A program made the translations under genes and the position numbers. The notes beneath the pieces were generated by a model. The model made no database searches. It was given only the letters and a program-made list of their open reading frames with translations, and was not told the origin of the DNA. DNA of 59,555 bases from Lachnospiraceae bacterium. GTDB taxonomy: Bacteria; Bacillota; Clostridia; Lachnospirales; Lachnospiraceae. Every line of letters starts with the position of its first letter. Position 1 is the stretch's first letter. Below, in pieces: positions 32,646 through 43,992 of this stretch. The stretch lies in assembly GCA_017525525.1 (NCBI GenBank), contig JAFXSQ010000004.1:1-59555 (forward strand), given 5' to 3'.

Positions 32646-32717
32646 CTGTTCATTATGTGTAAAATATGGTAAAATCAACAGTTGGGATTACATTTCTTTT
32701 GGGAGAGGGAAATAGTT

Positions 32718-33257
32718 TTGTTCACAGATGATGAACTTTATAAAAGTTTCATAGCAGGAGACAGAACATGTCTTGACGAGCTCATGCTTCGATACGGTGA
32801 CAGTTTGATCTGTTATCTGTACGGGTACTTAAAGAGCATGGAGGATGCGGAGGATCTGATGATAGACACCTTTGCAAGGCTTATGGTTAAGCGTCCTTCC
32901 ATAAAAAACGGCTGCTTTAAAGCGTACCTTTATAAGATTGCCAGGAATCTGGCGGCACGTCATTACACAAGGCAGCACAGGGCGGAGGTCTTCTCCATGG
33001 ATGGTCTTGAGACCGAACCCGAGGGTGCGGAGTTGATAGAGGATACGGTCCTCAGTTCGGAGAAAAAACACATTTTGAATATGTGTTTAGACAGCATAAA
33101 TCCGCAGCTTAAGGAAGCGCTGTGGCTTGTGTATGTCGAGGACTTGAGCTATGCGCAGGCGGCTGAGGTCATGCGGATAAGTGTGAAAAAGCTTGACCAC
33201 CTTCTTCAAAAAGGCAAGAAGGAACTTAAAAGTGAGCTTGTCAAAGAGGGGATATAA
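32718..33257 (+). CDS. ECF-type sigma factor
   Basis: 179 aa from a TTG at 32718, chosen because GGGAGAGGG ends 8 bases upstream; a TTG at 32682 gives 12 more residues without such a site. Region 2 (YLKSMEDAEDLMIDTFARLM, FKAYLYKIARNLAARHY) binds core polymerase and the -10 element. Region 4 (LKEALWLVYVEDLSYAQAAEVMRI..KLDHLLQKGKKEL) binds -35. Group IV sigma factors respond to envelope signals. No classical anti-sigma gene follows; instead there are a 7-TM protein and a PrsW-like protease on the same strand, a pairing worth attention. Confidence 0.88.
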   Translation: MFTDDELYKSFIAGDRTCLDELMLRYGDSLICYLYGYLKSMEDAEDLMIDTFARLMVKRPSIKNGCFKAYLYKIARNLAARHYTRQHRAEVFSMDGLETEPEGAELIEDTVLSSEKKHILNMCLDSINPQLKEALWLVYVEDLSYAQAAEVMRISVKKLDHLLQKGKKELKSELVKEGI

Positions 33258-33281
33258 CCCCTTCTTACTAAGGATGATTCT

Positions 33282-33908
33282 ATGATTGAGACTATAGAAA
33301 ACGGTTTACAATTGGCATTGACGGTGGTATGCATCACCGTAGCTATAAGTAAGGCTTATTTTTCGCGTAGCAGAACCTGGGCGATTCTTGCGTTTTTCTC
33401 GGGAATCTGGTTTCTCGGTGATCTGTACTGGGTGCTTTTTCTCGTGTTCTTCGGAGATACTCCCGATCCTTCGTACATTACGGACTTAAGCTGGTTTGCG
33501 GCTTATCTCTTTTTACTTCTTCTGATGAACAGTGTGGAAACCGAAAAGAAAAAGATGAGCAAGGTACTTCTTCTCGTGCCTTTGTTTACCATAGGGATGG
33601 GTGTGTACTATATGCAGTGGGGACAGTACCTGACTAATATAATAGACATCTTACTTATGTCGATGCTCATAGCACATTCCATACATGGACTGATGAAGCT
33701 TACCGAACGAAAAAATAGAAAAAACCGTATGCTTTACGGGACGGTGCTTTACTTCTGCATTATGGAATACGGCGCGTGGACCGCATCATGTATTTTCGAG
33801 GGCGATACGCTTGCAAATCCGTACATATGGTTCGATATAGGCTTATCACTGGCGTTTGTACTGCTGATTGTGGCAGTGGGGAAGGCGGTGGACAATGAAT
33901 TATATTGA
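33282..33908 (+). CDS. Seven-TM membrane protein of unknown function
   Basis: 208 aa with seven hydrophobic segments (e.g. LALTVVCITVAISKAYF, AILAFFSGIWFLGDLYWVLF, SWFAAYLFLLLLMN, LLLVPLFTIGMGVYYM, DIGLSLAFVLLIVAVGK). It contains no metal-binding or enzyme motif I can name; the overall shape recalls YhhN/lysoplasmalogenase-like proteins, but that is a weak resemblance. AAGGA precedes the ATG by 7 bases. It starts 24 bases after the sigma factor and overlaps the PrsW-like gene by 14 bases. It may be a sensor or anti-sigma substrate in this module, which is inference. Confidence 0.7.
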   Translation: MIETIENGLQLALTVVCITVAISKAYFSRSRTWAILAFFSGIWFLGDLYWVLFLVFFGDTPDPSYITDLSWFAAYLFLLLLMNSVETEKKKMSKVLLLVPLFTIGMGVYYMQWGQYLTNIIDILLMSMLIAHSIHGLMKLTERKNRKNRMLYGTVLYFCIMEYGAWTASCIFEGDTLANPYIWFDIGLSLAFVLLIVAVGKAVDNELY

Positions 33909-34539
33909 GAATGTGTTTATATGTCTTGCGATACCGCTTTTTATATCGATCATCTTCACAAGGTCGACGGTGCGTTTGGTACTCACGTTTATGTTGAGCG
34001 GAATGGTGGTCTGCCTTCTTTCGTCGTACATAAGTACATTTCTCTCAGGCAGTTTGGAGATTGATTCATTTACGGCAAGCCTTACGCTTGTGCCGATAGT
34101 TGAAGAGCTGATGAAGATGGTACCGTTGGTGCTTTTTATACTGCTGTTTGAACCTGATGTGGAGATGCTTCCCTGCAGTGTGCTGATGATAGCAGTGGGC
34201 TTTGCTACTTTTGAGAATGCCTGCTATCTTGCGCAAAACGGTGCGGAGAGCTTTCAGCACCTTCTGATAAGGGGCTTTGGAACAGGAGCGATGCATGTGG
34301 TCTGTGGGGCTCTTGTGGCAATCGGGTTGATGCTTCTTTGGGATAAGCTGTGGCTTAGGATGGCCGGTGCTCTCGGGCTTCTGGTGGTGGCTACGACCTT
34401 CCACGGCGTATATAATATTCTTGTATCCCAGAAGAGCTCGACCGCGATAATCGGATATGTGATCCCTATGGTGACATCGGTTATAGTTTTGATAGCGGAA
34501 AGGAAGCTGGAAAAAAACAGTAATCTCAGGCAGGATTAG
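33895..34539 (+). CDS. PrsW-like intramembrane glutamic protease
   Basis: 214 aa, starting at the ATG (33895) inside the end of the previous gene. Motifs fit PrsW: VPIVEELMKM (EExxK), GFATFENACYL, RGFGTGAMHV with a membrane His, and TTFHGVYN. About seven TM segments are expected. In Bacillus subtilis PrsW starts cleavage of the anti-sigma factor RsiW and so frees sigma-W. Here the gene is 3rd after an ECF sigma factor, which suggests a similar release circuit. A terminator overlaps its last codons. Confidence 0.82.
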   Translation: MNYIENVFICLAIPLFISIIFTRSTVRLVLTFMLSGMVVCLLSSYISTFLSGSLEIDSFTASLTLVPIVEELMKMVPLVLFILLFEPDVEMLPCSVLMIAVGFATFENACYLAQNGAESFQHLLIRGFGTGAMHVVCGALVAIGLMLLWDKLWLRMAGALGLLVVATTFHGVYNILVSQKSSTAIIGYVIPMVTSVIVLIAERKLEKNSNLRQD

Positions 34540-34563
34540 ATAAGCTATATCCTGCCTTTTTTT
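34528..34563 (+). terminator. Rho-independent terminator of the sigma/PrsW unit
   Basis: AGGCAGGAT (34528-34536) pairs with ATCCTGCCT (34549-34557), followed by a T run. Its left arm is the coding end of the protease gene. Confidence 0.85.
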
Positions 34564-34662: not shown

Positions 34663-37600
34663 ATGCCGAATGGAGAACAGAACAAATCAGAACGTAAGGT
34701 TGTAAAGAGTGGTATCAAAACACAGACAGAGCACAAGGTGGCAGAAATGTTTCTGCAGGCAAACTCCGGCTGGTCGATGAAGGATCAATCCGCGAGACGG
34801 ATAATGGAGAGAGAGGCCCGTGATTTCTTTAACAGGATTGATGAACGCTACAGGAAGAGTGAAGCGGGAGGGGTACCGGCACTCGTTCCTGAGGGTGATT
34901 TCGCAAAGAAGTTTACGACTCCGAAGGAGCCGGAGCTTTCTTATAAGGACAGCAAAAAAAAGAGCGGTAAGATGAAGGAGGCGCGGGAAGCGCTTAAAAA
35001 GGAAAAACCATCTGCCGAGATGACTAAATACAGCGGCTACATTCTTCAGGTTTATGAGGAGAAGCGTGATGCCGAAGATGAGGAAGAAGCTCCTGAAATT
35101 GAAAAGAAAGAAATCTTCACTACGAAGATTAATCCGAACATTTTCAGACCGGATTATTTTGGAAAGAATTTTGAGTATGTATATGATCAGCTCAGGCATA
35201 TGCAGGACGTGATTGAAAAATTCTCACCCGTTGGCGGAGAATACGATACGCTTACCGAGGCTGAAAAGGCAGCGTATGACGTGCTTGTGAAAAACAACGA
35301 ACTTGCGATGATCTGCTTCCATAATGCACTTCGGGTTCATAATATTTACGGAGGGGACAAGAAGCTTATTGATTCGGGTTTAAACTTTGGATATTCTGTT
35401 ATACTCGATGTGCCTTATGATGAAACAAAGACACCCGAAGAGGGGGTGGAAGCCGCCATTAACGAATACGCCGCATTTATTGTTAAAAGCAATCCTGAGC
35501 TTACTGCAAAGGTTGCCGGGGATGTGGATAAGAGCGTTGCGTCAAAGCAGGGTGAGCTTGATGAAAGAATAAAGGATGCAAAGGCGCAGTGTACTCTATC
35601 GAAGGACAGAGACTATTACTATGCACAGACATACAGGGATGTTGAACAGTATTTAAATGCTTTGGATGACATGAAGCTTATGCGCTCATTAGGGATTGAT
35701 GCCCGTAGCGTAATGAAGGCTTTAGCTGATTTTATGAGTTATGCCGAGCTTCAAAAGGATTACCGGCTTAAGGCAGACGGGTTTGCAGACAGGATGCACA
35801 AATATATTGAGGCTTTCGGAGATCCTGCCTTATATTCGGGAGAAAACAAGGCTTACTATGATGAGCTGATGAGATTAAAGCAGGAAAACTATACCAGCCT
35901 TGTTATCTATAACAGACAGGTTGCAGAGCTTAAGATTATGCTTGACAACATACTCCTCGGAAACAAGGAAGAAAATGAAGTAACGAAGGCTCTGAAGGTA
36001 AAGTATAATATAAGCAAAGAGATTTCAAAGCAGGAGCGGGAGCAGAAGTCTGCTGAGTTTGTACCATCGGCTATGCTTGAGAAGGATGCATTATTAAAGA
36101 ATCAGCTGGGTAATATAGGCTTTAAGTCTGAGGAGGCGATGAACAAGGCGTTTGAGATAATCCGAAATGAACCCTTCAGAATGCTTCTTGAGGCGGGGCA
36201 GACCGAAAAGAATGAGGCATTAATCCTGATGATGATAGTTTTGCATAAGGAGCAGTTTGGCAAAGACAGTATAGAATTGACACATATAAGGGGCATAAAG
36301 ATTCCTGCGGCTGATCTCTCAAAGACAAGTGACGAAATCGCCTCTAAGATATTATCCGATATCACTAAAACTTATGTAAAGCCCGAACTTGACAGCTTTC
36401 TTAATGACGGACCGCTTTCTACAAAGAGTTATACAAAGGAAGAGCTTATTGCTGCACAGCCTGAGTTTTTGAAAAGGTATTATCAGGGTAGTGTATTCAA
36501 CAGACTTGATGAGGTTTCCGAGAGATTCTTTAAAAACGATGAACTGACTATAGGAGAGAGTATAAATAAACTGTTCGCGTATTACAAAAAAGAGGGAATC
36601 AGATCTATGATCCTTAATAATGATGCTCTTCTACAGCAGGCAAGGGCAGCAAGTCTGCTCTCCCTTGACCTGATCACAGAGAAGAGTGATAAAAGGCTTC
36701 TCATGCCTTTTGAGAAAAAGGCTTTGGAACAGGGGGCATACGGAAAAGGAAGCAGGGAAGAGCAGATCAAGGCTTTCGCAAGGGCTATGTACGAAACCGG
36801 AGTGCAGAGAAAGAAGCTTGCTATGGACGGACTCTGCAGGGATGAGAACGTGAAAGAATTCTATCGTCAGCTGGGAGGCACGACAAGGGTTCTGTCAAAG
36901 TCTCCTCATACGGTGGATGAGATGGTAAAAAAGGCTGAAAAGCTTGTACATGAGCGTATGCGGAGACTTGAGGAGCAGGGTGTACCTGAGGAGCTTCGTA
37001 CTGAGGATTATGTTGCAAAGCAGCTTTATAAAATGGCAGAAGGTGAAAAGGGTCAGGAGGATGTGGCTCTTGGACTTGCGGTTCATGAGAGGCTTATGAA
37101 TAATGAGTACAGGGTTGCCGGAGATGAAGGAAAAATACTTTCAGAGGCCTTCTTCAGATCGTTCGCTGCGCTGGACAGAGTAAAGACTGTGCGCTATATG
37201 GAGGAAAAGCCTTATGTGGATATGATGAGAAATCTCTCTGCGGGAGCTTATTTTGATAAAGATACTCCTAAGGAAGAGGTCGATAAGGCAAGAAAGATGA
37301 ATAAAAGCGGAATACGCACCTATTATGATCAGATGCGTGTTCATTATGAAATGTTAGAACAAAAGTATGGCTATGAGCTTCCTGACCTTCCGTGGATAGT
37401 CGCTCACCGTGATGAATGGCTTGAGGATTTCATTGGTTGTCAGGTTGACTTTAGGCTTATTACCAGGGATCCGTATGTTTTTAAGGAGAATACACCGGGT
37501 GACGCAAGGCTTCTTATGCTTGTTGACTTTTATAATCTTTACGGTGCTGTCCTGGACGGTTTTATACCCAGTGCCATAATGGGAGGGGCAGACTCATATG

Positions 37601-39156
37601 ATGCTATTCTTTCCATGGATCTTCTTTCGACCATACAGGACAGTAAGAATTATCTGATTGAGCATCCCCGGGACAAAGCGGCTAAAAAGGTTACCGCGGC
37701 AGATCTGGCGTTGATCAGAAAGAAAAGGAATCCTATAGCGGTTGAAGGAGCAAAGAAAGCTGCGACAGAGGTTTCTAAAAAGAAGAAGGCTGCGGCAAAG
37801 AAGGAAGATGAATTAAAGCTCGAAGAAGAAAGAAGGCTTAAAGCTGAAGATAGGAAAAAGAAAGCTGAGGAGAGAAGAAAGGCCGAGGAGGAAAGAAAAA
37901 AGAAGGAAGAGGAGAAAAAGAAGAGAGCTGAGGCCAGAAAGAAGAGGCTGGCTGAGGAGGCTGCGCAGAAAGAAGCGCAGAAAGAAGCGAAAAAGCCGAA
38001 AGAGACGGTAAAGCAAAAGGTAGAAGTGAAACCGGCAGAGACGGTAAAACAAAAGGTAGAAGTGAAACCGGCAGAGACGGTAAAGCAAAAGGCAGAAGTG
38101 AAACCGGCAGAGACGGTAAAACAAACAGTTAGCGGTTATGAGAAAAGAGAAACCGGCATAGAGCGCGTGAGAAATATTGTTTACAGCGGCTTAAGAGGTA
38201 TAGGTATGCTCAAACCTCAGAAGATGGCAGAATTTAAGGATCCGGATTATGTTATAGAATTTACGGATGATGTCTTTGTGGCAGGCGAGCTTGAAAGCGA
38301 TGTTACCGAGAAGAAGCTTTTTGGGAAGGATGGGGAACCGAAACTTGAACATGTTAAGCAGTCAAATCTGACAGACTGTTACCTGATTTCTACTCTTGCA
38401 GGCATGGTGATGAAAGATCCGGCGTACATAAAGAATATTCTCGTCAGGGATGATGAGAACCCCGAATATGCCCAGGTAAGGCTTTATGATCATAAAGGCG
38501 ATCCTCAGGTTATCAGGGTAAAGAAAACAAGGAGAAAAGATGATAAAAGGCAGCTTTGGATACAGATGGTTGAGAAGGCGGCCCTGGTCATGATAGGAAG
38601 CATGCAAACGCAAGACCAGAAAAAAATAAATGCTGCGATTATGAGGTATCCCAAGGAGGAAAAGAAGGATTGGAGAAAACCGGGCTTTATAAAGAATTCG
38701 GTTGAATTCTCAGAGCTTAATATGGGTGGCGAGATGCTGGCTTCCGAGGTTCTGCTCGGAATAGACGGTATGATGGACACAATCGGATCGGCGCTGAAAA
38801 AACTGGATGATAAGGAGGATGAGAATGACATTATGGCAAGTGACATCCTAATAGGTGAAGCGCTCGAGTGGAGTAAAAGAGGGAAAATAGTCACTGCTTC
38901 AACTGACAGAGTTGATTTTGGAGGAGTTGATCATCCTCTTAAGGACATATTAAGACCTACTCACGTATACCTTATTTTGGGTGATGGTGATGTGATAAAC
39001 GGCAGAAAGACAGTAAGGGTTCGTGATCCTTACATGGATATGGGAAACGAGGGCGTGTATGACATAACATATGAAGATTTTGCAAGATTCTTTAAGGATG
39101 TGTACACCTCGGGCATTCCCATGGGGACAAAAAGCAAAGATGGATTTAGCATGTAG
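34663..39156 (+). CDS. Giant protein with a C-terminal calpain-like cysteine protease domain
   Basis: 1497 aa; GGGAGG precedes the ATG by 8 bases. There is no signal peptide or TM helix. Residues ~1-1020 are mostly helical with no family I recognise. Residues ~1027-1113 are a highly charged coiled coil (KAEERRKAEEERKKKEEEKK), and ~1114-1155 are 12-residue repeats PAETVKQKVEVK. The last ~280 residues resemble calpain/C2 proteases: KQSNLTDCYLISTLAGM puts a nucleophile at Cys1239 (calpain: QGxLGDCW), RPTHVYLIL gives His1434, and VRDPYMD gives Asp1455 where calpains have Asn. A cleaving C-terminus on a large helical body resembles effector toxins. It heads a six-gene block. Confidence 0.8.
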   Translation: MPNGEQNKSERKVVKSGIKTQTEHKVAEMFLQANSGWSMKDQSARRIMEREARDFFNRIDERYRKSEAGGVPALVPEGDFAKKFTTPKEPELSYKDSKKKSGKMKEAREALKKEKPSAEMTKYSGYILQVYEEKRDAEDEEEAPEIEKKEIFTTKINPNIFRPDYFGKNFEYVYDQLRHMQDVIEKFSPVGGEYDTLTEAEKAAYDVLVKNNELAMICFHNALRVHNIYGGDKKLIDSGLNFGYSVILDVPYDETKTPEEGVEAAINEYAAFIVKSNPELTAKVAGDVDKSVASKQGELDERIKDAKAQCTLSKDRDYYYAQTYRDVEQYLNALDDMKLMRSLGIDARSVMKALADFMSYAELQKDYRLKADGFADRMHKYIEAFGDPALYSGENKAYYDELMRLKQENYTSLVIYNRQVAELKIMLDNILLGNKEENEVTKALKVKYNISKEISKQEREQKSAEFVPSAMLEKDALLKNQLGNIGFKSEEAMNKAFEIIRNEPFRMLLEAGQTEKNEALILMMIVLHKEQFGKDSIELTHIRGIKIPAADLSKTSDEIASKILSDITKTYVKPELDSFLNDGPLSTKSYTKEELIAAQPEFLKRYYQGSVFNRLDEVSERFFKNDELTIGESINKLFAYYKKEGIRSMILNNDALLQQARAASLLSLDLITEKSDKRLLMPFEKKALEQGAYGKGSREEQIKAFARAMYETGVQRKKLAMDGLCRDENVKEFYRQLGGTTRVLSKSPHTVDEMVKKAEKLVHERMRRLEEQGVPEELRTEDYVAKQLYKMAEGEKGQEDVALGLAVHERLMNNEYRVAGDEGKILSEAFFRSFAALDRVKTVRYMEEKPYVDMMRNLSAGAYFDKDTPKEEVDKARKMNKSGIRTYYDQMRVHYEMLEQKYGYELPDLPWIVAHRDEWLEDFIGCQVDFRLITRDPYVFKENTPGDARLLMLVDFYNLYGAVLDGFIPSAIMGGADSYDAILSMDLLSTIQDSKNYLIEHPRDKAAKKVTAADLALIRKKRNPIAVEGAKKAATEVSKKKKAAAKKEDELKLEEERRLKAEDRKKKAEERRKAEEERKKKEEEKKKRAEARKKRLAEEAAQKEAQKEAKKPKETVKQKVEVKPAETVKQKVEVKPAETVKQKAEVKPAETVKQTVSGYEKRETGIERVRNIVYSGLRGIGMLKPQKMAEFKDPDYVIEFTDDVFVAGELESDVTEKKLFGKDGEPKLEHVKQSNLTDCYLISTLAGMVMKDPAYIKNILVRDDENPEYAQVRLYDHKGDPQVIRVKKTRRKDDKRQLWIQMVEKAALVMIGSMQTQDQKKINAAIMRYPKEEKKDWRKPGFIKNSVEFSELNMGGEMLASEVLLGIDGMMDTIGSALKKLDDKEDENDIMASDILIGEALEWSKRGKIVTASTDRVDFGGVDHPLKDILRPTHVYLILGDGDVINGRKTVRVRDPYMDMGNEGVYDITYEDFARFFKDVYTSGIPMGTKSKDGFSM
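38002..38127 (+). repeat. 36-bp tandem repeat inside the calpain-like gene
   Basis: Unit starts at 38002, 38038, 38074 and 38110 (GAGACGGTAAARCAAAAGG...), coding PAETVKQKVEVK linkers. Three near-identical units plus a partial one; copy number could vary. Confidence 0.85.
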
Positions 39157-39185
39157 TATACTACGGGAAGGACGGTGAGAGCGTT

Positions 39186-39563
39186 ATGAGGACTCAGGAA
39201 GAGCGGATAATGCTCATGCACAGCAGGGCAAAGGAAATAAGGATTGAACACGACCGTGCTGTCCGGCGCGTGTTAGGAGTTGTATCGATAATGCTCTTTG
39301 TCTGCTTGGTGGGCCTGACTACCGTATTAAGCGGTGTGGGACATGGTATAGCCGATACCTACGCCGCAGGCGCATCAATGCTTGCCGACAGTGTTGGCGG
39401 TTATGTGCTTGTTGCGGTTATCGCATTTGTTTTAGGAGTTTTGGTAACTGTCATTATAAAGGATTATGTTTGGAAAAAAGCAGATAAGAGCAATGCCGGA
39501 GAAGTGCTTGGAGAAAAAAAGGAGGAAGAGCAAAATGTTGTGCAGTATCACACGGATAAATGA
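39186..39563 (+). CDS. Small two-TM membrane protein
   Basis: 125 aa. A charged N-end (RTQEERIMLMHSRAKEIRIE) precedes TM1 (~30-50, VLGVVSIMLFVCLVGLTTVL). A short loop then TM2 (~72-93, YVLVAVIAFVLGVLVTVII), and a charged tail that overlaps the next gene by 29 bases. GGACGGTGAGAG is a modest ribosome site. No recognised family. Its position between the calpain-like protein and the GNAT-like genes could suit a membrane partner, an anchor or an immunity factor; I cannot tell which. Confidence 0.75.
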   Translation: MRTQEERIMLMHSRAKEIRIEHDRAVRRVLGVVSIMLFVCLVGLTTVLSGVGHGIADTYAAGASMLADSVGGYVLVAVIAFVLGVLVTVIIKDYVWKKADKSNAGEVLGEKKEEEQNVVQYHTDK

Positions 39564-40443
39564 GACGAACTATAATTATTACCTTCCTATGTTTCCGGAT
39601 AATCTTGCGGAGCTTGCAGAGGAAGAAAATGTATTGCTTTTTGGTATAGAAAGCTTCGGCAGAGCAGCGGGTGCCGTCGTGGTGAGAATGGTATCCCTTG
39701 ACGCAGAGATAATATGGTTTTATGTGGATGAGAATCGTCGTGGAATGGGAATAGGCTCTGAGGGGCTGATGTGCCTAATGCAGCATATGAGATCGGATTA
39801 TGGCATGAGCAGTATCTCCATGGACATATACGCAGGTTCGAATAAAGCGTTAAAGAGACTGTTTGATGGGTTTCCTGTGCAGCGTATCAGCATTCCACAG
39901 AAGATTTATACTACAACACTGGGTTTTCTTCTGTCTTCGTCCAAACTCAAGAGAGGTAGTAAAAAATGTATTAGTTTGGCGGAACTTGACAGCAAAGGTT
40001 TAAATAATCTCTGCGGAGAGCTTATAAAGCGAGGCGAGGACCTTGTGGAAATGCCTATAATACCGGACGATTATCTCAAAAACCAGTCGGCTGTATTTAT
40101 GGAAAACGGTGTTGCAAAAGGTGTGATGCTCTTAAAGAAGCTGGAAGAGAAAATAGTAATATCACTGCTTGCTTCGTTTGCTTCAAATGTTGCTGCTATA
40201 ATGGATATGATGTGCTTTTGCGCCGAAAGATCAGAGCGTTTTGACAGTGGAACAAAGGTTACGGCTGCTTTGGTTGATGAGCGCATGGAGAGCGTGATAA
40301 GAAAGCTTCTTTCGGTGGAGGACGATGAAGGCTTTGAACAAAGCGAGAGAGTGTCACTTGACCTTTCGTATTTAGAAATAGCAGAGAGGGAAGCGCAGAG
40401 GATGATAGAGCTTTGGAAGTCACTGGATGAAAAAATCGCGTGA
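39535..40443 (+). CDS. GNAT-like acetyltransferase, first of a tandem pair
   Basis: 302 aa from the ATG at 39535 (AGGAGG 8 bases upstream). Residues ~1-115 look like a GNAT N-acetyltransferase: WFYVDENRRGMGIGSEGL contains the acetyl-CoA motif (RRGMGIG). The second half (~130-302) is unlike a plain GNAT and has a repeated beta/alpha layout, possibly a second, degenerate GNAT lobe. The substrate is unknown. Acetylation of a cluster protein would be speculation. The next gene is a diverged relative. Confidence 0.7.
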   Translation: MLCSITRINETNYNYYLPMFPDNLAELAEEENVLLFGIESFGRAAGAVVVRMVSLDAEIIWFYVDENRRGMGIGSEGLMCLMQHMRSDYGMSSISMDIYAGSNKALKRLFDGFPVQRISIPQKIYTTTLGFLLSSSKLKRGSKKCISLAELDSKGLNNLCGELIKRGEDLVEMPIIPDDYLKNQSAVFMENGVAKGVMLLKKLEEKIVISLLASFASNVAAIMDMMCFCAERSERFDSGTKVTAALVDERMESVIRKLLSVEDDEGFEQSERVSLDLSYLEIAEREAQRMIELWKSLDEKIA

Positions 40444-40515
40444 TTAAAGAATTGCTTTGTATGGACTTTGAATAATCGGGTTCAGGCTTGGATGATAAGG
40501 CAATGGAGGGTATTT

Positions 40516-41541
40516 ATGAACACCGGAATACTTGATGACGGATCGTTAAGCTCCAGATTAAAGGGCGACATATATTGGAAGAAGCAGAAGCTTATTCTCA
40601 GGGCTGAAGAGGCTACACAGAGGGAGAATAAGGCGAGAGCTCATTTTTATTCAAAATTTGCAGAGAGAGGCAGTTATGATGGACCGGGCTTATTTGAAGA
40701 AAACGTGCATTTTAGTGAAAGCTGTCTTTCTCCGACGCAAATATCCGCTTACTCGGAGCTTATACCTGAAAACTATGTATCTCAGATAAAGAATGCTTCC
40801 CTGAAGGTCACTGTGTATAAAAGGGAGGAAGAGTTCGCGGGACTTGCAATAACCGGAATACACAGCGGATGGCTGGAGATAGTGTGGGTGGCACTTCCGC
40901 AGGATAAACCGGACGGAGTGCATACGAAAGAATTGATGACTCATATAATCTTAAATGCGAAAGAATTCGGGGGGTATAAAGGAGTATTTGCCGAGCTTCA
41001 TATGTCTCCGGAGGAGAACAGGATGAAGGATATCCTTTCTGAAATCGGAATGGATATCATAGAGAAAAAGAACAACCTGTATGAGTTTAGAATACGGGAT
41101 ATGGAAAAGACAAAAACCCTTTTGGATGCTGCTGACAGAATCCCGTGCGTTCCGCTTCTGTTTTTGACGGACAGGGAGAAGGATGAAATTGAAAATATGC
41201 TGTATAACGAAGCAGGAAGTGTGCCGGTTCAGATGCCGGTACCATGGAGCAGTTTTCGGCAGGACCTGAGTCTCGTACATTATGATTCGGCAAAGAAGAC
41301 ATTGGGACTGATGCTTGTGTCGCAGGTGGGGGATTCGCTGGTTATCGATCTGCTCTATGGAAAAAATCCTATGATCACCGCGGCAATCCTCGGAACAGCT
41401 ATAAGGATGGCATCAGACGAGCTTCCCGCATCACAGAAGGTGCTTGTGCCAATCGTTTTAAGCGCTACAAGACCGATAGTGGAAAAACTTGCTCCGGATG
41501 CCACAAGAGAGGAGCTGGTAGAAGCGGTATTCAGATTTTAG
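40516..41541 (+). CDS. GNAT-like protein without the acetyl-CoA motif, second of the pair
   Basis: 341 aa from the ATG at 40516 (GGAGGG upstream); an ATG-less longer frame upstream is unlikely. Layout follows the previous protein: a beta segment LEIVWVALP, then a helix TKELMTHIILNAKEFGGYKG where RxxGxG/A would be expected, then ELHMSPEENRMKDILSEIGM. A second half with LVIDLLYGKNPMITAAILGTAIRMA also matches the previous protein's final part in style. Loss of the acetyl-CoA loop suggests a structural or regulatory role. I am moderately sure of the relationship. Confidence 0.65.
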   Translation: MNTGILDDGSLSSRLKGDIYWKKQKLILRAEEATQRENKARAHFYSKFAERGSYDGPGLFEENVHFSESCLSPTQISAYSELIPENYVSQIKNASLKVTVYKREEEFAGLAITGIHSGWLEIVWVALPQDKPDGVHTKELMTHIILNAKEFGGYKGVFAELHMSPEENRMKDILSEIGMDIIEKKNNLYEFRIRDMEKTKTLLDAADRIPCVPLLFLTDREKDEIENMLYNEAGSVPVQMPVPWSSFRQDLSLVHYDSAKKTLGLMLVSQVGDSLVIDLLYGKNPMITAAILGTAIRMASDELPASQKVLVPIVLSATRPIVEKLAPDATREELVEAVFRF

Positions 41542-41596
41542 ACGGGAGTGCTTACATATTGATCATACATCCATATAATTAATGAGAGGTAAAAAT

Positions 41597-43606
41597 ATGT
41601 GTACGAGTAATAATGTTCAACAAATGATTGATGGCGGACATCAGCCCGAATCAATCCGGATTCAAGTTCGAGCGACGGACAATCCGGCTAATCAGGTTGC
41701 CCCGCCTCCGGTGCCGGATCAGGTGCAGGTACAACACCGGCAACCGATACAGCAGACTCCGTCCGAAGCCTGGGTTAGAAATCTCGCGGCAATCGGACAA
41801 AATGTCGTGATAGATGACAGGCAGCTTGATGATGCTGCCGAAAGGGCAGATGCTGTAGTAAAAGAATTTGCTCCGCAGAGCGGTGTCGGACTGATCTCAA
41901 AGTGGAAAAGAAAAAGGGCATTTAAGGAAAAGAAAAAAATATACGATAGTCAGGCGGCTACGGACTGGAGAAGCCAAAGGAACGGTCAGCAGCCTGCACC
42001 GCCTGCAGCGCAGATGTCTTTTAGGAATCCGTCACAGCTTAATCCGGCCGAACGTGTCAAAATATATGACATGATGCATGAAGACATCGATTTTATGGGT
42101 TATACGGATGACAGAATCTTTGTGGATCGGTTTGATGTGCTATACAAAAAGCTTAAAATCTATGAACAGATACAGCAGGACCTCGAGGATCCGGCGTGGT
42201 CTGCACCGGGTGCCGAAGCTATATTGAGGGGATATCCGATGCTGGGGAGCTTTACACTTGAGGATGTGAAAGCAAGGGCAAGAGAGTGTGCGACAAGCAA
42301 GCAGTTCTATGAAGCGAAAATGGATCTGATTACCAATCCGTTTTATCTTATACTCAGAAAATCGGATACACATGATCTTGGTGGTCAGGAGCTTGATGAT
42401 AAGATCCGAGATCTTTCGACCGCGAGTCCCGCGCTTTCGGAATATCTGAGTATTATGCGCAGACTGAAAGCCCTTGAGGCGAATGGAATAAAAAGAAAGC
42501 ACGCTGATTATGCGGCGCTTTACAAAACAGAGGTTGCTGACGGGCTTGACAAGCATTTAAAGGGGCATTTTGCCGTAGGAACCGTTCGCAAATCTTTGTC
42601 GGTTACCGGTCCGAAGTATGATATGGGCTTCTATGAAGTGAAGGCAAAGGACCGTAACTCCGAAAAAGAAGAAGACAGAAAGTTTAAGCAGGATACATCC
42701 CTGAATCATGAAGGAAGCCTGGAACTTGAAGCCGGGTTAACACTCACCGCGGTTGAGGGAAGTATAGAGAAAACCACTGAAGACGGTCGTGGTAAGGCGA
42801 GCGCAGACATTCAGGTGGGTGAGGTCAAGGTTTATGGTAAAATCGGAGCCTCAGTATTCTCGGATGTATTTAAGGAAAAGAAAAAAGATTCTGACGAAGA
42901 GACAAAAACAGATCTTACATCAGCTTATGTCGGAATTGAGGCCGGTGCATCGGCAACAGGCGTTAAGGCGAAGGGTTCGGCAAGTTTTGATAGCAAAATC
43001 AAATGGTATAACCGTATTAAAAATGATAAGGCAAGAAATGCTCTTTCGCAGATCAAGTTTTTGGGTGTCAGTGTTACGGCAAGCGGTGAAGCGTTCAAGG
43101 CTAGCGCGACCGCGTCTGCAAAAGCAGGAAAATTCGTAGACAAAAAGGAAAAGGATGATGTATTGGTTGAAGGAGCTGCTATTAAGGCGGGCGTCTCAGC
43201 TTCCTTGCTTTCGGGAAAGATAAAAGGCGAGATAACATTTATGGGTGTAAAGATCGGGTTGTCGGTTACCGGCAATGTCGGAAGCGTCGGCGCATCGGTT
43301 GGCTTAAAGGCAAAAGGCGGCAGGATAGGAGCGTCTCTTTCCGCTAACCTCGGAGTAGGTGCCAAGCTTGGTTTTTACATAGATGCGAGTGCATGGGTTT
43401 CGCTGTTTAAGGACGTTATTGCTGAACAAACTGCTGATATGCGTGAGTCGATAAAGAAGTCTCTTGACCAAGCATTTGAAGGAGCGAAAAAGGATTTCAA
43501 AAGGTCGATGGATGAGATTCAAGGCTACGCCGGTCAGATGGCGGATTATCTGAGCGATAAGATGTCTCGAGTGAAACGGCTGTTCAGAAGAAATGCAGTA
43601 AGATAA
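41597..43606 (+). CDS. Protein with long Gly/Ala-rich beta-patterned region
   Basis: 669 aa from the ATG at 41597 (AGAGG 7 bases upstream). N-terminal ~1-75 is Pro/Gln-rich and disordered-looking, followed by a basic stretch (KWKRKRAFKEKKK) and helical ~130-360. Residues ~370-600 alternate small and polar residues in strand-like units (GASATGVKAKGSASFDSK, GLSVTGNVGSVGASVGLKAK, GASLSANLGVGAKLGF), the style of central stalks in polymorphic toxins. The last ~65 residues form an amphipathic helix (SIKKSLDQAFEGAKKDFKRS). No signal peptide. The family is unknown; an effector-like or pore-like nature is inferred from pattern and from the DUF4176-like neighbour. Confidence 0.75.
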   Translation: MCTSNNVQQMIDGGHQPESIRIQVRATDNPANQVAPPPVPDQVQVQHRQPIQQTPSEAWVRNLAAIGQNVVIDDRQLDDAAERADAVVKEFAPQSGVGLISKWKRKRAFKEKKKIYDSQAATDWRSQRNGQQPAPPAAQMSFRNPSQLNPAERVKIYDMMHEDIDFMGYTDDRIFVDRFDVLYKKLKIYEQIQQDLEDPAWSAPGAEAILRGYPMLGSFTLEDVKARARECATSKQFYEAKMDLITNPFYLILRKSDTHDLGGQELDDKIRDLSTASPALSEYLSIMRRLKALEANGIKRKHADYAALYKTEVADGLDKHLKGHFAVGTVRKSLSVTGPKYDMGFYEVKAKDRNSEKEEDRKFKQDTSLNHEGSLELEAGLTLTAVEGSIEKTTEDGRGKASADIQVGEVKVYGKIGASVFSDVFKEKKKDSDEETKTDLTSAYVGIEAGASATGVKAKGSASFDSKIKWYNRIKNDKARNALSQIKFLGVSVTASGEAFKASATASAKAGKFVDKKEKDDVLVEGAAIKAGVSASLLSGKIKGEITFMGVKIGLSVTGNVGSVGASVGLKAKGGRIGASLSANLGVGAKLGFYIDASAWVSLFKDVIAEQTADMRESIKKSLDQAFEGAKKDFKRSMDEIQGYAGQMADYLSDKMSRVKRLFRRNAVR

Positions 43607-43626
43607 ATTGAAAGGAGAATAATAAA

Positions 43627-43932
43627 ATGTATAAGGATTTATTGCCGATTGGCTCAATAGTAGTATTAAAGGGAGGAAATGTAAAGCTTATGATCACCGG
43701 AAGGATTCTGTCCGATGACAAGCTGGAGGAGGTCTACGATTATGTAGGATGCATATATCCTATTGGTATTACGGCTGACGATGAGCAGTACTTCTTTAAC
43801 CGTGACGGAATAGAGAACGTATTGTTCATAGGATATCAGGATGAGGATGAGCTTACCTTAAGGAAAGAGGTATTTGATAAGCTCGGTGCGTTAAAGATGC
43901 AGGACGGAGAGATAGTTTCGGCAGAGGAGTAA
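43627..43932 (+). CDS. DUF4176-like small protein
   Basis: 101 aa; AAAGGAG 9 bases before the ATG. The opening LLPIGSIVVLKGGNVKLMI, the YDYVGCIYPIGI segment and FNRDGIENVLFIGYQDEDE match my memory of the DUF4176 family, which is encoded next to LXG-type and other type VII secretion effectors in Firmicutes. The function is not established; a chaperone or accessory role is assumed. It closes the cluster and a strong terminator follows. Confidence 0.75.
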   Translation: MYKDLLPIGSIVVLKGGNVKLMITGRILSDDKLEEVYDYVGCIYPIGITADDEQYFFNRDGIENVLFIGYQDEDELTLRKEVFDKLGALKMQDGEIVSAEE

Positions 43933-43947
43933 TTATAACAATCTTTT

Positions 43948-43992
43948 AAAGGCGGCAATGGGTTAATAAACCTGTTGCCGCCTTTACTTTTC
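43948..43992 (+). terminator. Rho-independent terminator closing the cluster
   Basis: AAAGGCGGCA (43948-43957) pairs with TGCCGCCTTT (43976-43985), extended by GGTT/AACC inside the loop, followed by ACTTTTC. Confidence 0.85.

Follow-up and report, generated by a model that had tools for sequence, protein, structure and literature searches.

Among the contractile injection systems (CISs), the extracellular type (eCIS) is one of the closest described counterparts of the system considered here. In the Photorhabdus virulence cassette (PVC), the AAA ATPase Pvc15 loads cargo via N-terminal segments (PMC11495950). The DUF4157 domain of eCISs has been proposed to act as a chaperone in cis or in trans (PMC11297309, PMC8213781), and hydrophilic signal peptides are a reported property of eCIS cargo (PMC11297309), as stated in the available portions of these papers. 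A membrane-bound, contact-dependent mode has been reported for a haloarchaeal CIS (PMC11566945, in the part of the paper available). In this study, a 59,555-nucleotide stretch of DNA of a Lachnospiraceae bacterium (assembly GCA_017525525.1, contig JAFXSQ010000004.1; the window) was analyzed. The window corresponds to contig 42 in an assembly of 3.19 Mb (99.7% complete) and contains a block of six co-oriented open reading frames (ORFs), A to F, at positions 34,663 to 43,932 of the forward strand. They encode a calpain-like protein (A), a small protein with two transmembrane (TM)-like segments (B), two tandem GCN5-related N-acetyltransferase (GNAT) proteins (C and D), a protein with a Gly/Ala beta domain (E), and a DUF4176 protein (F). 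We estimate, with a probability of roughly 60%, that these six genes form an orphan operon of cargo (effector) genes belonging to a Lachnospiraceae CIS that is encoded elsewhere in the genome, and that the tandem GNATs are cognate partners of the cargo. With this block, about two dozen such CIS cargo loci seem to be dispersed over the genome.

The gene product of C (39535..40443, 302 aa; a longer ORF begins at 39466) was identified as a GNAT by Pfam (PF00583, 6.9e-8). Its AlphaFold model (predicted local distance difference test [pLDDT], 91.3) and a Foldseek match to 2wpw revealed two GNAT domains, and the acetyl-CoA motif of the first domain is intact (RRGMGIG). No Pfam match was obtained with the gene product of D (40516..41541, 341 aa; a longer ORF begins at 40468). 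D matched profile A1, which was built from C, D, and twelve relatives, at 4.0e-88, D itself being among its 14 rows, and it matched paralogues independently by BLAST (32% over 280 aa, 3.5e-49). The two GNAT domains of D are thus assigned by profile and BLAST, and those of C by model and Foldseek. The acetyl-CoA motif of D is degenerate. In addition, the N-terminus of D weakly resembles the RxKGDIYWxKxK start of a separate protein of 490-507 aa (25 aa, 48%, E = 0.007). This protein is encoded directly upstream of a GNAT gene in C60 and G180 (C, G, and L numbers denote contigs of the same genome, other genomes of the family, and fetched loci, respectively), and the GNATs closest to D by BLAST are those that come after a separate RxKGDIYW protein. 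D seems, on this weak match, to carry a piece of the RxKGDIYW protein.

The tandem GNATs form a large family in this genome. Profile A1 matched 39 places at E <= 1e-3, and 33 tandem-GNAT genes were found in the fetched neighbourhoods at 1e-11 (coverage of 190 positions or more). Tandem-GNAT genes are spread over 22 contigs of the assembly. Of 68 tandem-GNAT genes from seven genomes, 42 directly adjoin a gene in the same orientation for a product of 600 aa or more; for mid-sized background genes of these loci, the proportion was 68 of 267. Toxin-type and enzyme domains were identified in these neighbours: a calpain domain is directly beside a GNAT in C28, C12, C64, and G277 (in C44, three genes lie between), Ntox11 in C62, G277, G129, and G080, ADP-ribosyltransferase in C53 and G129, and an ABC1 kinase-like domain in C31 and G180. 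The large neighbour in C60 is presumably also kinase-like, judging from a motif that we recognise. Many of the large neighbours had no Pfam match. The same cargo types reappear in other genomes with GNATs of their own.

A GNAT tree was made from the 42 tandem GNATs whose cargo could be assigned to one of 11 groups. The tree tracks cargo type: 15 changes were required, compared with a mean of 31.3 after shuffling, and none of 200 shuffles was as low, with the reservation that some rows are near-copies, which favours clustering. For this analysis, the L035 fusion and D were trimmed. The gene downstream of the GNAT fusion in C62 shares the core of A.

The N-termini of the cargo candidates are highly hydrophilic in composition (median grand average of hydropathy, −1.12 versus −0.36; p = 2e-16), and 23 of 55 candidates start with MD versus 4 of 92, in agreement with what is reported for the loading segments of eCIS cargo (PMC11297309). 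These candidates derive from 71 large neighbours, including the C44 calpain added by hand. Manual curation excluded 13 that were fragments, CIS parts, or proteins of the membrane or housekeeping type; two more (a CIS ATPase and one protein without a clear start) were then dropped to give 56, and the L142 ATPase to give 55. Five starts were shifted to an internal Met, and this curation could favour the hydrophilicity result.

The preliminary description of the block, made from the letters alone, had placed any secretion machine elsewhere, and a CIS was indeed found on another contig, C30. By Pfam, the C30 stretch encodes Pvc16_N, DUF4280/PAAR, sheath, gp19 tube, CIS_tube, spike base, and gp25 proteins, together with baseplate-type proteins. 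It opens with a CIS13-type protein (NCBIfam CIS13, 7.9e-27, below the curated cut-off); a sequence search of the PDB with the CIS13-type alignment gave no match. The best match of the sheath among solved structures is 9ezm (5.5e-106). All six genes between CIS13 and Pvc16 encode TM-like segments, N-terminal in four of them, and one of the six products is a MORN-repeat protein; this arrangement hints at a machine that is anchored to the cell. An AAA/winged-helix ATPase gene on C50 directly adjoins a tandem-GNAT gene. Because G129, G208, G041, and G016 encode relatives of this ATPase within or close to their CIS genes, we take it as the CIS ATPase of this genome.

Linkage between tandem GNATs and CIS genes was observed at the operon level in other genomes. 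G277 contains a row consisting of a calpain protein gene (PF00648, 6.3e-18), a GNAT gene overlapping it by 4 bases, and a CIS13-type gene; the gene after the last resembles, by its start, the next CIS gene, and the sheath of G277 lies on other contigs. The GNAT gene adjoins the ATPase gene in G129 as in C50. In G006, the gene immediately upstream of one for a relative of the C50 ATPase encodes a relative of A, and GNAT genes lie a few genes upstream of CIS13 and the sheath in G041. A full tandem GNAT is located within 10 kb of the CIS13-type gene in 10 of 80 named loci; therefore, most members lie elsewhere.

Genome-level association was examined in an even sample of 299 genomes of the family. 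Among the matches listed, the tandem-GNAT family was found in 10 genomes: 8 with strong matches, G146, and G023 (45 bits, positions 4-201). Profile A1 matched 198 of the 299 at 1e-5, and the weaker of the matches listed, mostly covering one GNAT domain, were not counted. The sheath was found in 27 of the 299, and 8 of the 10 tandem-GNAT genomes are among these 27 (Fisher, 6e-8). A search of 40 genomes detected the CIS13-type gene in every tandem-GNAT genome except G023 (9 of 10) and, at 29% identity, in 2 of the 30 remaining genomes. The latter are G016 and G022, the two searched among the 19 sheath-positive genomes without a strong tandem GNAT; the gene was absent from 15 searched of 19 sheath-negative genomes. 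When these 19 sheath-positive and 19 sheath-negative genomes were re-tested with profile A3, 8 of the 38 matched at E <= 1e-10 (best, 1.4e-16), the 38 having been preselected as lacking a strong tandem GNAT and hence being no independent control. Furthermore, tandem GNATs were found in 41 of 42 genomes chosen via the CIS13-type gene (best E <= 4.4e-28), with one to at least 30 matches each at E <= 1e-10. This set comprised 40 alternate loci of the 80 named ones (L208 in place of L207) plus L258 and L262, and was not chosen for GNATs. The proportions of 41 of 42 and 10 of 299 argue for linkage at the genome level, as an association that is not phylogenetically independent, since the CIS13-type genomes are mutually related, and with a marker whose choice was prompted by its position next to GNATs in G277 and G041.

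The cargo candidate encoded by A (34663..39156, 1497 aa) consists of a hydrophilic N-terminus (MPNGEQNKSERK), a long helical-looking part, a linker rich in Lys and Glu, and a C-terminus that resembles calpain but is diverged. Its helical core is common to a C62 protein (L035) and to the G006 protein mentioned above. As a general cargo domain, this core was rejected, because its profile recovered only its four founder proteins. The C-terminus matches two proteins with Pfam calpain domains (BLAST, 2.1e-7 and 1.4e-6), and Cys1239 (codon 38377..38379) is aligned at the position of the calpain nucleophile and His1434 (codon at 38962) with the calpain His. A PDB sequence search with the calpain part gave no match. 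No TM-like segment was detected in A or E. Gene B (39186..39563, 125 aa) had no relatives in the fetched loci; we would guess that its product is a candidate immunity protein or membrane accessory protein.

Based on these observations, the following mechanism is proposed. A and E would be the injected cargo. Within the producing cell, C and D would each associate with their own cargo, keeping it in a soluble, inactive, or modified state, and would pass it to the machine for loading, perhaps through the CIS AAA+ ATPase. They would serve as adaptors rather than as effectors or immunity proteins. F would be the chaperone of E, and B might act at the membrane in immunity or as an accessory. The cargo could be aimed at ciliates, fungi, or other bacteria.

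The function of the GNAT fold in this scheme can be considered from the acetyl-CoA motif (R/Q-x-x-G-x-G/A), which is kept in 35 of 58 aligned members of the family. It is absent from the other 23, D included, nine of which form a class with a gap at this site, and several GNAT pairs, C and D among them, combine one member with the motif and one without it. Instead of serving as loading adaptors, the tandem GNATs might activate or mask the cargo enzymatically, through acylation or acetylation, a serious alternative that we nevertheless consider the less probable one. RTX toxins have GNAT-fold activators, most members keep the motif, the GNAT subtype pairs with the cargo, and C can be assigned with confidence to the tandem GNATs, close to 2wpw/2wpx. 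Against this, the 23 members without the motif, the gap class, and the mixed pairs suit a binding role. We favour binding of the cargo as the role of the GNATs, possibly together with its acylation, because they adjoin cargo genes, match them in subtype, diverge fast, lie beside the ATPase in two genomes, and are mixed with respect to the motif. A more specific picture is offered tentatively, at somewhat less than even odds: Lachnospiraceae, many of them from ruminants, would own a cell-anchored contractile machine resembling the type VI secretion system (T6SS) that fires a large, scattered arsenal of giant effectors, with a dedicated tandem-GNAT adaptor recruiting and acyl-modifying each of them.

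Alternatively, the block could be a multi-effector operon in which the tandem GNATs, in the manner of Legionella VipF, are themselves injected. VipF structures are among the Foldseek fold matches, and effector operons are common in CISs. This explanation is improbable, because the GNAT subtype tracks the cargo type across genomes and many motifs are degenerate, which the role of cargo partner fits better.

The protein of F (43627..43932, 101 aa) is with certainty a DUF4176 protein (PF13780, 2.6e-26), the only match to this family in the genome. E (41582..43606, 674 aa; an internal ATG at 41597 is a possible start) has a helical-looking first half followed by a Gly/Ala beta domain at approximately 374-601, according to the secondary structure of a low-confidence AlphaFold model (pLDDT, 42, from 7 rows). 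Part of the N-terminal half shows a weak link to a GNAT-linked protein of 907 aa in G080 (28% over 124 aa, E of ~3e-6). The beta domain is common to proteins at five other loci, in G075, G160, G137, G013, and G006, and a DUF4176 gene directly follows the beta-domain gene at all six loci, including the window. The E-like and DUF4176 pairs of G075 and G160 (L048:489-2952 and L049:4811-7363) have no tandem GNAT in the fetched stretches. DUF4176 proteins of the Ltc type are chaperones of LXG toxins (PMC13355648, PMC11481500, as far as the accessible text goes). The preliminary description had read the DUF4176 protein as a hint of type VII secretion, and the block could accordingly be a toxin module of the type VIIb secretion system (T7SSb), in which F, as an Ltc/DUF4176 chaperone, would assist E, an LXG-like toxin, and EssC would drive the export. 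The hint was reasonable, since beta-domain relatives of E and DUF4176 genes adjoin a WXG100 gene (Pfam) in L047 and similar small genes in L051. On the other hand, no EssC exceeded the family cut-off in this 99.7% complete genome (best, 104 bits versus 778), and no LXG or WXG100 match was found in the block, WXG100 not having been searched in the rest of the genome. The type VII reading was therefore rejected for this genome, where it is very unlikely, and the machine found is the CIS on C30.

Since four of the five genomes with relatives of E have no sheath match, the E/F pair is probably a toxin-chaperone unit able to serve different export routes; it may be a passenger from another context, and its export route here probably differs from type VII. 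The effector interpretation given in the preliminary description largely stands, with an effector-type block whose machine lies elsewhere in the genome and with similar units in other Lachnospiraceae, with the exception of the type VII route. A protease or stress machine that works in the cytosol with GNATs as modifiers and has no tie to secretion is as improbable as the type VII reading: A and E have no TM-like segment, and an intracellular role is conceivable in view of the Streptomyces CIS, which resides in the cytoplasm and affects the cell that makes it (PMC10066040, from the available text), but the linkage to CIS genes and the Ntox11 and ADP-ribosyltransferase domains at sister loci are against it.

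Several findings weigh against an orphan cargo operon with tandem-GNAT partners. The exact order of A to F has no second case in any other fetched locus. Units of a large protein and a GNAT, several with calpain, do recur in other Lachnospiraceae; pairs of the E/F type in G075 and G160 occur alone with unrelated neighbours. By these pairs and the gene order, the ground for refutation named in the preliminary description applies by half. G075, G160, G137, and G013, which have such pairs, show no sheath match. When A, E, and D were used as queries, matches were found in 14, 7, and 2 of the 299 genomes, respectively, the own genome included; most matches to A and E are partial, and G180, the sole genome of the same genus, has no match to A or E. 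A shows no calpain match in Pfam and has Asp1455 (codon at 39025) where calpains have the catalytic Asn; its designation as a calpain-like protease is supported by BLAST and by the aligned Cys and His, and weakened on these two counts. No neighbour of at least 600 aa adjoins 26 of the 68 tandem-GNAT genes. The calpain and coil groups are split in the GNAT tree, the calpain group needing 4 changes, and C joins the C62 GNAT fusion (support of 83, long branches) and not the main calpain group. With regard to the association between genomes, 19 sheath genomes have no tandem GNAT beyond weak matches, two of them with a sheath that is 75-76% identical, and no tandem GNAT was found in G308, the remaining genome of the CIS13-type set. 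G023 (60% complete) has a weak tandem-GNAT match and neither sheath nor CIS13-type gene, and G146 (68% complete) has no sheath. The relatedness of the CIS13-type genomes and the choice of that marker count on the same side.

The remaining features of the block agree with the preliminary description, which had listed six tight co-oriented genes bounded by terminators, with a GNAT pair, a beta-patterned protein, and a DUF4176-like protein among their products. These assignments were all upheld: C is a GNAT by Pfam and D by profile and BLAST, both in a family with dozens of copies in the genome, which the preliminary description had not recognised, and the beta-patterned region of E was recovered in the low-confidence model. 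The genes B and C overlap by 29 bases, and the other intergenic gaps are 20-72 bases; gene starts were picked from ribosome-binding sites read by eye. Downstream, the terminator scan detected a strong intrinsic terminator with an 18-pair stem at 43947..43986 on the forward strand. Upstream, an intrinsic terminator on the same strand (34529..34563; stem GGCAGGAT..ATCCTGCC and then seven T) was read by eye; it is unlisted by the terminator scan (loop >8). It parts the block from the genes lying directly 5' at 32682-34539 of the window, which encode a sigma-70-type factor, a membrane protein, and a PrsW-type protease, and which possibly form a regulatory unit.

Other observations were made around tandem-GNAT genes. 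At L116, L117, L133, L139, L285, L290, and L291, tandem GNATs, several of them of the motif-gap class, adjoin a multi-TM protein, one of which weakly matches a histidine-kinase 7TM region (PF16927, 3.1e-6, just under the cut-off). Inspection of sequences showed STAS, RsbW-like, and SpoIIE-like partner-switching genes near the GNAT-cargo loci L132, L138, L125, and L116, which suggests stress-type regulation, and a calpain/GNAT pair within a flagellar/csrA-type locus of the own genome (L045:6369-9989). Proteins at L036:12180-14081, L145:9113-12367, L144, and L132:4605-8429 form a cargo-candidate family related by BLAST, with a motif that we take to be kinase-like (TDRHMGNY..FDNDLSFG in L036); the scanned members had no Pfam match over the cut-off, and one had a weak match to Fam20C (0.0017). 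Giant proteins of 2599-3047 aa beside tandem GNATs, with no Pfam match (L121:10178-19321, L112:318-8774, and L128:1-7797), could be rulers or multi-domain cargo.

How CISs choose and load their cargo, above all cargo encoded far away, is under current study (PMC11495950 and PMC11297309, in their available parts). If the more specific picture offered above is true, the GNAT family would constitute a novel class of CIS cargo loaders, and the operon in the window would represent its uptake of a toxin-chaperone pair of the type VII kind. A partner family beside cargo genes would be a genomic handle for CIS effectors anywhere in a genome and would provide a testable loading mechanism. It would also indicate an injection arsenal in common rumen bacteria, with ciliates, fungi, and other bacteria as plausible targets. 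The pairing of cargo with tandem-GNAT partners of a CIS was not described in the open-access literature searched, the search being partly loose. Isolates may exist, since genomes not labelled as metagenome-assembled carry the family: Lachnospiraceae bacterium AD3010, XBB2008, and Butyrivibrio sp. AE3009 have 13, 18, and 6 matches, respectively (E <= 1e-10).

Among known systems, the effector adaptors and chaperones of T6SSs, including Eag, are similar in that a cognate partner gene lies beside the effector gene, and differ in belonging to another machine. Tap/DUF4123 and DUF2169 proteins are such adaptors or chaperones, and to our knowledge none of them has a GNAT fold. The two-domain GNAT fold is shared with 2wpw/2wpx of the clavulanic acid pathway and with VipF at ~10-12% identity; unlike these, the GNATs found here have dozens of paralogues, many of which adjoin large proteins. 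The Ltc (DUF4176) chaperones of T7SSb LXG toxins resemble F, which directly follows the beta-domain protein E, whereas E has no LXG match and sits with tandem GNATs in a genome with no EssC over the cut-off. The haloarchaeal membrane-bound CIS (aT6SS, 9ezm) provides the best structural match of the sheath and has Cis13; however, it belongs to another domain of life, and no tandem-GNAT cargo appears in the available part of its description (PMC11566945). The eCISs (PVC and Afp, with DUF4157-bearing eCIS-associated toxins [EATs]) have in common with the present system the sheath, tube, Pvc16, and AAA ATPase, large toxins with hydrophilic N-termini, and toxin domains of the ADP-ribosyltransferase type. 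DUF4157, a typical eCIS feature, had no match among the cargo scanned, many neighbours being unscanned and the genome as a whole not searched. In contrast to eCISs, the partner here is a tandem GNAT, the GNAT genes lie on 22 contigs and not at the end of one operon, and the CIS stretch holds several large proteins with TM-like segments, which may mean a cell-anchored machine. By analogy, the tandem GNATs may take the place that corresponds to DUF4157, in the form of a partner gene beside the cargo gene.

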